Origin: Candidatus Omnitrophota bacterium
GTDB taxonomy: Bacteria; Omnitrophota; Gorgyraeia; Tantalellales; Tantalellaceae
Assembly: GCA_028717825.1 (NCBI GenBank)
Contig: JAQUNB010000010.1
Span: forward strand, 1 to 11,860
DNA length: 11,860 nucleotides
Reading direction: 5' to 3'
The stretch's first letter is position 1, and each line of letters opens with the position of its first letter. Of the stretch, positions 4,837 to 6,508 are shown piece by piece. Below the pieces are notes generated by a model that was not told the origin of the DNA, ran no database searches, and was given only the letters and a program-made list of their open reading frames with translations. Position numbers and translations under genes: made by a program.

Positions 4837-5928
4837 TTAAGCGCTTTCAGCGTCGGTATCTCTAGATGCGACATTTTTATAATTCAGCTCGACAATTTCC
4901 TGAGCGGGCTTATTTTGCGGAGTGAATTGTCTATTATTCTTTCCGCCGGCGTTAACGTTCGTGTCCCACTTCCACCAGTAGACACCTGCGAGCCATGGCT
5001 CGTTCCAGATGGTTTCAAAGAAAGCTTTGTAGCATATTGCCTGTATGTCCACATCGGGGTTGCCGCCTGTTGGGTTTTCCCATGGAGTTATCGCGGCGTG
5101 GCTAGTGGAAGGATAACCTATCTCCGTAAAGACTATTTTTTTATTGACCGTTTCCAGCCATGATTCTATCTCGCATTCCCATTTTTTCCACCCGCTTATT
5201 AGGTCTTCCAGCGTGGGGGTTGATTTCGTTGAGATAGGAAAGTATGCGTCTATGCCTACATAATCAAGCACATCCCAAAAATTTACATCTTTATAATCAT
5301 TCCAGTTCGCCGCGTATACCAATTGTGAGGAACATTCTGCGCGGACCTTTGCGATCAGATCGCGCCAGCGGGATTCCTTTTGGGCGGTAAAAGAAAGTTC
5401 CGTGCCGACACAATAGAGTTCTACTTCATATTCTTTGCACATCTGGGCATAATGGAGTATGATCTTTTCGTATTCTTTGAACCATTTTTCCCAATCTTCT
5501 TCAGTTACAAACCCTATATCCGCACGCCAATAAGTTCCGTCATATCTATCTATCAGATCAACGTGGGGTTTAAGCATTACCTTAAGGCCAAGTTTATGTG
5601 CGTTCTTTATTACATACTGGATGCTCTTGTCGCTTGGGGTTTGTTCGGTCGCCTTTATTTCGGTTGAGTTATATTTCTCTTGGTAGTAAGTAACGCAGAT
5701 GGATATATAGTCGACACCTATAGAGACAAGCTTTTGCAGGGATTCGTTAGAATACTGTGAAGAGAAACGGTCTTTTTCCCATGTAACGTAACACATGCCT
5801 CGTTGCGGATAAAATAGTGCTTCCTGTGACTGAGAGTGTACGGCAGGAAAGATCACCGAGCTGCCAAAGAGTAGCAGAACAACTGAGCTTGAGATCTTAA
5901 AAAATATTTTTTGATTAGACATCCCCAT
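4837..5928 (-). CDS. Secreted GH113-like glycoside hydrolase (first gene behind the c-di-GMP riboswitch)
   Basis: 363 residues with a signal peptide (hydrophobic VVLLLFGSSVIF, cleavage near VHS at about residue 32). The barrel motifs run parallel to its neighbour's: RGMCYVTWEKDRF, LGLKVMLKPHVDLI (114-126), ELYCVGTEL with likely acid/base Glu177, DYVGIDAYFP (222-231), KIVFTEIGYP with likely nucleophile Glu269, AGVYWWKWDTN, and GGKNNRQFTPQNKPAQ. The closest named family is GH113 (endo-beta-1,4-mannanases). It has a short extra C-terminal tail (VASRDTDAESA) absent from the paralog. The start at 5928 is preceded in the mRNA by AAGGA with 9-base spacing; a second ATG six bases on is possible. It is the first gene after the minus-strand cyclic-di-GMP-I aptamer, so its translation or transcription is probably switched by that ligand. 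Confidence 0.84.
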   Translation of the reverse strand: MGMSNQKIFFKISSSVVLLLFGSSVIFPAVHSQSQEALFYPQRGMCYVTWEKDRFSSQYSNESLQKLVSIGVDYISICVTYYQEKYNSTEIKATEQTPSDKSIQYVIKNAHKLGLKVMLKPHVDLIDRYDGTYWRADIGFVTEEDWEKWFKEYEKIILHYAQMCKEYEVELYCVGTELSFTAQKESRWRDLIAKVRAECSSQLVYAANWNDYKDVNFWDVLDYVGIDAYFPISTKSTPTLEDLISGWKKWECEIESWLETVNKKIVFTEIGYPSTSHAAITPWENPTGGNPDVDIQAICYKAFFETIWNEPWLAGVYWWKWDTNVNAGGKNNRQFTPQNKPAQEIVELNYKNVASRDTDAESA

Positions 5929-5929
5929 G

Positions 5930-5998
5930 TCTTACCATCCTTCTTTTTGTGAGATAAAGGCGAGTATTCGAGGTAAGGCCACAAAAAGTCAGGTAAGA
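5930..5998 (-). promoter_or_regulatory. Leader hairpin around the ribosome-binding site (likely riboswitch expression platform)
   Basis: The mRNA leader between the aptamer and the glycosidase start can form a two-part stem. The inner 9 bp pair plus positions 5943-5951 with 5980-5988 (CUUUUUGUG with CACAAAAAG in RNA). The outer 7 bp pair 5930-5936 with 5992-5998 (UCUUACC with GGUAAGA). The AAGGA ribosome-binding site sits in the internal loop between the two stems, and the outer stem ends one base before the start codon. A second copy of GGTAAG (plus 5972-5977) offers a competing partner for the outer strand. No U-tract follows, which favours control of translation over termination. Confidence 0.5.
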
Positions 5999-6019
5999 GA
6001 TGGAAAAGTTCTACCAAAT

Positions 6020-6108
6020 TCGGTAATCAGACAACCATATCTTACACTAAAACTGTGTAAGATTTAGGCTCACGACTTTGCGGTCCTATCCTTTCGGATA
6101 GTTTGCCT
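6020..6108 (-). promoter_or_regulatory. Cyclic-di-GMP-I riboswitch aptamer (GEMM motif)
   Basis: Read on the minus strand, the RNA shows the conserved GEMM elements in order. AGGCAAAC comes first, then a 5-bp stem UAUCC/GGAUA capped by a GAAA tetraloop (6087-6100). GGACCGCAAAG follows, then GCCUAAA (the 5' half of a tetraloop receptor). A 7-bp hairpin CUUACAC/GUGUAAG with a 7-base loop (6041-6061) is next, then UAUGG (the 3' half of the receptor), and finally GUCUGAUUACCGA, which corresponds to the consensus GCCGGGUUACCGA. The GAAA loop with CCUAAA...UAUGG is the known tertiary contact of this class. Differences from the consensus are an extra C before GCAAAG and GUC in place of GCC. The element ends 91 bases before the glycosidase ATG. 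The ON or OFF sense is not determined. Confidence 0.88.
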
Positions 6109-6109
6109 T

Positions 6110-6127
6110 TATCGTTTGATAACGATA
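6110..6127. repeat. 7-bp inverted repeat at the 5' edge of the riboswitch
   Basis: TATCGTT (6110-6116) and AACGATA (6121-6127) form a perfect inverted repeat with a 4-base loop, directly upstream of the aptamer in the minus-strand RNA. It may be a hairpin that abuts the aptamer, or a DNA operator near the promoter. No confident minus-strand -10/-35 pair is visible beside it. Confidence 0.5.
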
Positions 6128-6328
6128 TAATGTTGACTATTAAAGAGCTGTTCTAGTTCTAATTTTAAGTTTACTGCTAAAAGAGTAGAAAGCAAGATGT
6201 GGAAGTCCAACTTTTTTATAACTAACAATATGTTTTTCTTTTTCTTAAAATAAAGAAAGTGTTCTGTTAAAAATGTCCAAACAATCTATTCCCGGGGCAT
6301 AAACTTAAAATATCTTACGGGCTTTTCA
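6128..6328. other. AT-rich intergenic stretch, presumed promoter region of the riboswitch leader
   Basis: No gene is visible here. The minus-strand promoter for the riboswitch transcript must lie at or beyond the aptamer edge, but I see no good hexamer pair. On the plus strand TTGACT (6133-6138) resembles a -35 without a good -10 at 16-18 bases. The stretch is dominated by A/T runs, including a T-rich block at about 6210-6245. Confidence 0.4.
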
Positions 6329-6402
6329 CGGGGCCTGTCAGCCCCCGCGTTTGCTTTGCGAGGCAAAGCAGCAGAGGTGTTCGAATTATCTGCTGCCACA
6401 GG
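6329..6402. repeat. Multi-hairpin structured element of unknown function
   Basis: A locally GC-richer block with several inverted repeats. CGGGGC (6329-6334) pairs with GCCCCCG (6341-6347). TGCTTTGC (6352-6359) pairs perfectly with GCAAAGCA (6363-6370) over a 3-base loop. GCAGCAGA (6368-6375) pairs with TCTGCTGC (6389-6396) over a 13-base loop that contains TTCGAAT. CCTGT (6334-6338) can pair with ACAGG (6398-6402) to close the whole unit. Some stems overlap by a few bases and are alternatives. The T-loop-like TTCGAAT is suggestive of a tRNA, but no acceptor stem partner exists, so it is not called as a tRNA. It could be a REP/MITE-like extragenic palindrome or a small structured RNA. Confidence 0.6.
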
Positions 6403-6403
6403 T

Positions 6404-6420
6404 AAAAAACCCGCAGGGTT
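6404..6420 (-). terminator. Small intrinsic-terminator-like hairpin on the minus strand
   Basis: On the minus strand AACCC-TGC-GGGTT is followed directly by T residues, giving six in a row when the two stem Ts are included. The stem is only 5 bp, so strength would be low. It would stop minus-strand transcription coming from the greA side before it reaches the multi-hairpin element and the riboswitch. There is no gene just upstream that needs it. Confidence 0.35.
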
Positions 6421-6479
6421 CGGTACTCAATCATTTTCAATTTTTGTTTGTCATATCTTTTTAGGTAATATATAATTTA

Positions 6480-6508
6480 TTAAACATATTTTGTTTTGGT
6501 GCTATAAT
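6480..6508 (+). promoter_or_regulatory. Extended -10 promoter for greA
   Basis: TGCTATAAT at 6500-6508 is a TGn-extended -10 box with a perfect TATAAT. A weak TTAAAC sits at the -35 distance (6480-6485, 17-base spacing). The predicted transcript would start near 6515 and give a very short leader containing the GGAG ribosome-binding site at 6524-6527. A second TATAAT at 6471-6476 is less well placed. The promoter position rules out the longer TTG start at 6491 for greA. Confidence 0.65.

Follow-up and report, generated by a model that had tools for sequence, protein, structure and literature searches.

A class I c-di-GMP riboswitch aptamer precedes a putative exported GH113 mannanase gene of Candidatus Omnitrophota: a proposed OFF switch with a 5'-strand expression platform

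Introduction

Several described systems come close to the one presented here. In Vibrio cholerae, the class I (GEMM-I) c-di-GMP aptamer Vc1 lies before gbpA and thereby leads a single exported, polysaccharide-directed protein, as does the aptamer presented in this study (PMC4744006). Cd1 of Clostridioides difficile is a transcriptional OFF switch resembling the one proposed below, in that ligand favours the terminator, whereas a short-lived antiterminator disrupts the ligand pocket (PMC9262584). A mannanase, manA, whose product disperses biofilms, is down-regulated at high c-di-GMP via a protein regulator, Clp (PMC3971182).

Neither the RNA class nor the enzyme family is new, while GH113 as a target of such an RNA is apparently undescribed. 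In the literature searched (subscription papers and supplements aside) we found no paper pairing a c-di-GMP riboswitch with a glycoside hydrolase, GH113 included, and none on riboswitches in Omnitrophota; the words riboswitch, c-di-GMP and mannan are all absent from the main Omnitrophota paper (PMC10066038). Here we describe an Omnitrophota locus and propose, with moderate confidence and from sequence comparison, that the class I c-di-GMP riboswitch preceding its putative exported GH113 mannanase gene acts as an OFF switch.

Results

The window, i.e. the whole stretch of 11,860 nucleotides analysed (contig JAQUNB010000010.1 of assembly GCA_028717825.1), contains a real and well supported c-di-GMP-I aptamer on the minus strand at 6117-6019. 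It matches RF01051 with 67.4 bits (gathering score 35; E 9.1e-12) over the full length of the model (positions 1-87; cmscan), and this is the sole Rfam match at gathering level within the window. A first-pass annotation of the same DNA, made from its letters, had called such an aptamer from its characteristic elements and had named a search with the RF01051 covariance model as a check; the score bears the call out, and every element listed could be located on the minus strand: GGCAAAC (6107-6101), the GAAA-capped stem P2 (6101-6086), GCAAAG (6081-6076), the P3 stem with the tetraloop-receptor letters CCUAAA/UAUGG (6068-6035) and the closing ACCGA, read here as ACCGAA at the aptamer 3' end (6024-6019). 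The GAAA tetraloop and its receptor are thus both present. That annotation placed the aptamer correctly in the minus-strand leader and drew its interval too short, the aptamer starting 9 nt upstream of the upper coordinate, 6108. The aptamer 5' strand, CGAUAAAGGC (6114-6105, minus strand), holds the presumed equivalent of Vc2 G20 and forms strand P of the helix A discussed below.

The aptamer ends 90 nt before the ATG (5928) of the first of two tandem GH113 genes, which occupy 5928-4837 (363 aa) and 4719-3679 (346 aa) of the minus strand. The mannanase-like pair of the first-pass annotation is confirmed in that both ORFs match PF22612 (E 1.2e-64 and 1e-64; 218.9 and 219.1 bits, cut-off 27); in alignment, the second protein is 49% identical to the first. 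The solved mannanases 4cd6 and 3civ match the first protein with E about 1e-37, and residues E151/E231 of the 4cd6 chain, which we take to be its catalytic Glu pair, align with E177/E269. In the second protein CIGTEL and ITEIGY were read by eye as the Glu motifs, and the N-termini of both proteins, also judged by eye, resemble secretion signals. The product of the first gene is accordingly treated here as a putative exported endo-beta-mannanase.

Upstream of the aptamer, a search of 6120-6500 for additional RNAs gave at E<=1 a single hit, DUF805b (0.39), which is under its gathering score. No promoter-like site was detected directly 5' of the aptamer on the minus strand, the nearest one being at 6341-6312 (9/12 matches), and no tRNA is present in the window. 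The part of the greA-to-aptamer intergenic region at 6300-6450 is G+C-rich and repeat-like, with a short minus-strand hairpin, CCC-UGC-GGG-UUUUUU, that corresponds to no Rfam family.

The same genome provides an internal control. Its other two GH113 genes sit on contig C28 in a mannan-uptake operon: they are accompanied by genes for two membrane proteins of the sugar-permease type, for a phosphomannomutase/isomerase protein and for proteins bearing the mannan-binding domains Mann_GBD_bact and CBM27. No aptamer was detected on contig C28, and the GH113 loci L007 and L008 are likewise clear.

The search for the same leader in homologues, also proposed in the first-pass annotation, retrieved it widely. 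Among the named genomes, close relatives belong to Candidatus Omnitrophota, including Tantalella remota and Aadella gelida, and an aptamer lies directly upstream in 9 of 12 related loci of named genomes (RF01051 in eight, RF03167 in one); the other three comprise two loci cut off at the gene 5' end by the end of the DNA and one Bacteroidota relative. The family search covered 19 genomes from 19 genera (68 GH113 matches, 51 aptamer hits), and the order-level searches comprised the same 19 genomes. An aptamer was found just 5' of a GH113 gene in 16 of them, each representing a different genus, and 17 GH113 genes in these 16 genomes have a same-strand aptamer whose 3' end lies 91-284 nt ahead of the protein match. 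Nineteen of the 51 aptamer hits belong to such pairings (two G004 genes each have one split aptamer), and three further GH113 genes of the family are second in a tandem. The family genomes lacking the pairing are G011 (no close GH113), G013 (a clade fragment only) and G005 (a 49% homologue with no aptamer); G014 has, in addition, a second close homologue (60%) without an aptamer. Beyond the family, an aptamer was detected at one of the 18 class-level GH113 loci scanned (L087, RF03167). In the class as a whole c-di-GMP-I aptamers are very common, 166 of the 197 genomes having hits over the cut-off, with a maximum of 20 per genome.

Several leaders depart from the compact aptamer. Long hairpin inserts occur in or after P2 in L034 and L042 (both G004), L033 (G006) and L024 (G001), and cmsearch splits two of these. 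Tandem aptamers were considered for G004 and rejected, the two hits per gene being, by eye, one aptamer halved by a long insert. Another unusual case is L016, a Patescibacteria-labelled contig carrying an Omnitrophota-like GH113 gene and a c-di-GMP-I-GGC aptamer, which reflects either misbinning or transfer.

The locus has been inherited in place: in six of the nine named loci GreA is the upstream neighbour of the gene, and a hyp201 homologue is found downstream in eight of the nine, which matches the order in the window. A tree was built of 46 GH113 rows (without six of the 18 class loci, L094, L096, L097, L099, L101 and L102, and without GH113 matches lacking a locus). In it, 17 of 19 aptamer-bearing proteins fall in one half, together with the three tandem copies, three aptamer-free proteins and the long-branched Bacteroidota row; support for the branch between the halves is weak (78/97), and the other half includes L016 and G025. 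The history of the pairing may be either a single origin with losses or several gains. The pairing of aptamer and GH113 gene is itself well supported by these comparisons, and its retention in 16 genera, even where protein identity has dropped to about 50-63%, suggests selection on regulation.

Other aptamer targets in the family are exported as well, in keeping with what is known of GEMM targets; they include RHS-repeat proteins, two-partner-secretion exoproteins and large ORFs with signal sequences. Among the 32 non-GH113 aptamers (the Pfam scan of their targets was run without L146, L152 and L157), five precede two-partner-secretion exoproteins (PF05860; L131, L132, L133, L134 and L145), and contig C115, with the aptamer L077, has a ShlB/FhaC-type transporter gene. 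RHS-repeat proteins follow L147, L153 and L156, the last aptamer scoring 33.3 bits, below gathering. Giant proteins have been reported from Omnitrophota, and the large ORFs behind L078, L079, L149 and L155, which have mixed enzyme domains or no known domains and a common signal-like N-terminus, CLF..NT(V/I)..A, resemble them; in this group, the aptamer hit on C38 is just under the gathering score. Four of the 32 (L139, L142, L151 and L158; RF01051; genomes G002, G007 and G009) precede IS200-like (Y1_Tnp) proteins; the three of these scanned with NCBIfam match the model of REP-associated tyrosine transposases below its cut-off. A c-di-GMP aptamer ahead of a transposase-like gene is odd.

With regard to the ligand, a G, an A and a C of the leaders, which on a motif-based and partly assumed mapping we take as Vc2 G20, A47 and C92, are invariant in all 13 aligned leaders. 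The genome of the window has four GGDEF matches, of which three are readable and carry GGEEF, the fourth being cut by a contig end; at what we presume to be the position of base selectivity, the readable ones have GD, GD and GN and no Hypr-type Ser. PilZ proteins are encoded in all 19 family genomes. Because the GGEEF proteins lack the Ser, PilZ is universal in the family and the contact letters are invariant, c-di-GMP is the likely ligand, rather than cGAMP. The ligand-contact residues of Vc2 used for this comparison are those given in PMC4744006. It is very unlikely that the aptamer binds 3',3'-cGAMP or is promiscuous. Such a reading would draw on the initial annotation of cGAMP riboswitches as c-di-GMP riboswitches, as recounted in PMC9262584, and on the clan shared by c-di-GMP-I and related models; against it, the equivalent of Vc2 G20 is G in 13/13 leaders, so that the A replacing G20 in cGAMP riboswitches (GEMM-Ib) was found in none, and it was a G20A change that, according to PMC6274999, was used to make a class I GEMM bind cGAMP. 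The selectivity positions of the three readable GGDEF matches argue in the same direction.

Downstream of the aptamer, the minimum-energy fold of the window contains a long hairpin with the start codon region base-paired (6007-5922, minus strand; UUUUCCAU CUCUUACC / GGUAAGA C AUGGGGA), with an inner stem CUUUUUGUG / CACAAAAAG at 5988-5980 / 5951-5943. In this fold the start codon is paired with a probability of 0.97, and the Shine-Dalgarno-like AAGGA (5942-5938, 9 nt before the ATG) lies within an internal loop (paired probability 0.16). No intrinsic terminator was identified in the window leader. By our own reading, in which calls that were weak or overlapped the start (L024, L027 and L042) do not count, an intrinsic terminator precedes the gene in 9 of the 19 GH113 leaders (L021, L022, L023, L025, L026, L028, L036, L016 and L087).

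Comparison of the leaders brings out an element, A', that is complementary to the aptamer 5' strand. In the window A' (GCCUUUAUC, 5961-5953, minus strand) pairs at 9/9 positions with GAUAAAGGC in the aptamer 5' strand (6114-6105), a segment containing the presumed Vc2 G20 equivalent, and this match has p=0.003 against dinucleotide shuffles. A' lies inside the start-codon-sequestering hairpin of the window and inside the terminator hairpins of six relatives (L021, L022, L023, L025, L026 and L036). Over the 19 GH113 leaders the complementarity to the 5' strand gives a Fisher p=1.7e-9 against dinucleotide shuffles, nine leaders being individually significant at p<0.05 and the remaining ten not (counts made without L013, which equals L028, and without L034b and L042b, the second halves of split aptamers). 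When eight aptamer segments were scanned, the 5' strand stood out (p=4e-9), with weaker signals from the P2 strands (5' p=0.0026, 3' p=0.0032).

The helix that A' would form with the 5' strand, helix A, shows some compensatory change. It was picked by eye before counting, and the tests ignore relatedness. In an alignment of 13 of the 19 leaders (without L033, L034, L042, L040, L016 and L087), 87.5% of its cells are paired, as compared with 41-56% in slid controls; three pairs, comprising six cells in total, are altered on both sides, a result attained by 1/500 shuffles, and the covariation score was attained by 12/500. Two of the five measures are weaker (percentage paired, 28/500; further pair types, 126/500). 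A second pairing, B, between the P2 3' strand and the terminator 5' strand, was also considered and is not claimed, its covariation being reached by 85/500 shuffles (84% paired versus 31-55% when slid).

These data bear on whether helix A is a by-product of the shared ancestry of the leaders rather than a working switch, the true platform being some other, unrecognised one. We consider this unlikely. The leaders are orthologous, their locus is largely syntenic, and several of them lack the helix (no convincing helix A exists in L024, L028, L040 and L016), all of which would suit such a by-product. Against it stand compensatory changes, C-G for U-A in G012 and G015 and G-C in G018 and G002 where others have A-U, and a matched shortening in G017, whose helix A is one base shorter on both strands. 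Moreover, helices formed with a leader's own partner are more stable than those with swapped partners (-10.8 versus -9.3 kcal/mol, p=0.0011, n=14; L024, L028, L040, L016 and L087 not among the leaders used), and the other riboswitches of these genomes give no comparable signal (p=0.58 for the 14 testable of 32; the other 18 lack a GGCA[A/T]A close to the 5' end and fall outside the test).

Folding of partial transcripts indicates when helix A could form. In transcripts ending at A', it has a probability of 0.84-1.00 in all 13 leaders folded (0.93 in the window; the set is without L022, L024, L028, L040, L016 and L087) and is 6-22 kcal/mol better than the aptamer and downstream RNA folded apart. 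Thirty nt past A', the probability is at most 0.06 in six of the 13, the window included, 0.45 in one and at least 0.81 in six. In complete leaders the minimum-energy fold is the repressing hairpin and helix A is absent, so that the proposed switch would have to be kinetic; dominance of helix A early and of the hairpin later is as expected of a kinetic OFF switch. An unbiased folding measure, computed for 17 of the 19 leaders (without L034 and L042), gave 14/17 for GH113 leaders and 7/14 for other leaders (p=0.004), a moderate separation.

An alternative is that the same riboswitch works with the opposite sign, c-di-GMP turning the mannanase ON, for example by making the start codon accessible, in which case mannan would be degraded by attached cells. 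This seems doubtful to us. It has precedent in Vc1, which acts as an ON switch on chitin-binding GbpA (PMC4744006), and in the occurrence of GEMM-I aptamers both as ON and as OFF switches (PMC9262584). On the other hand, helix A and a ligand-competent aptamer are mutually exclusive, and the 3' part of helix A overlaps the repressing hairpins; furthermore, the aptamer 3' strand, a possible antiterminator partner, has no complementarity with the leader (p=0.84 and 0.98).

Discussion

We infer from these comparisons that c-di-GMP controls the secreted mannanase through the leader RNA, and that the sign of control is OFF. In the OFF switch that we favour, A', emerging during transcription at low c-di-GMP, would capture the aptamer 5' strand, which would destroy the ligand pocket, delay the repressing hairpin and allow the gene to be expressed. 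This repressing hairpin would be the start-codon-sequestering hairpin in the window and an intrinsic terminator in several relatives. At high c-di-GMP, the bound aptamer would retain its 5' strand and A' would remain in the hairpin, which would halt transcription or translation. Cells that leave or forage, with low c-di-GMP, would then produce the exported mannanase, and attached cells would not.

We tentatively extend this proposal to a family-wide OFF switch with a distinct platform, in which the hairpin or terminator carries the complement of the aptamer 5' strand and the apo aptamer is torn apart, control being exerted on transcription or translation depending on the genus. The mannanase would be its most conserved target, and mannan breakdown would be tied to detachment. 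The leaders form a natural series in this respect, with one aptamer coupled to a terminator or to a start-codon hairpin according to the genus.

Compared with the first-pass annotation, the present analysis adds the expression platform with A' complementary to the 5' strand of the aptamer (a new element), the likely OFF sign, the syntenic locus, and GH113 genes of the mannan-uptake operon that lack the leader. It would add an exported polysaccharide hydrolase to the direct RNA-level targets of c-di-GMP, in an uncultured phylum, and it yields a testable claim, namely that mannan hydrolysis is switched against c-di-GMP without a protein regulator. If the OFF switch holds true, the exported mannanase is produced at low c-di-GMP. 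A signal of surface life probably sets the timing of mannan-type sugar digestion in these bacteria. As to the role of the enzyme, the mannan-uptake operon favours mannan as food, and the regulation favours dispersal from the cells' own matrix.

The comparison with known systems brings out what may be particular to this locus. Unlike the window, Vc1 precedes a chitin-binding protein, not a GH113 glycosidase, and it is reported as an ON switch (PMC4744006). The antiterminator of Cd1 uses the aptamer 3' strand, whereas the signal of the GH113 leaders is in the 5' strand (PMC9262584); among class I platforms, the 5'-strand platform was set against those of Cd1 and pilM. The c-di-GMP-I-GGC form (RF03167) shares a clan with RF01051 and is found upstream of GH113 relatives in L016 and L087, whereas the window matches RF01051 only. 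The regulation of manA resembles the proposed switch in its outcome, a mannanase being down when c-di-GMP is high; there, however, control is indirect and exerted by a protein, Clp (PMC3971182), while in the window it would be exerted by the leader RNA.
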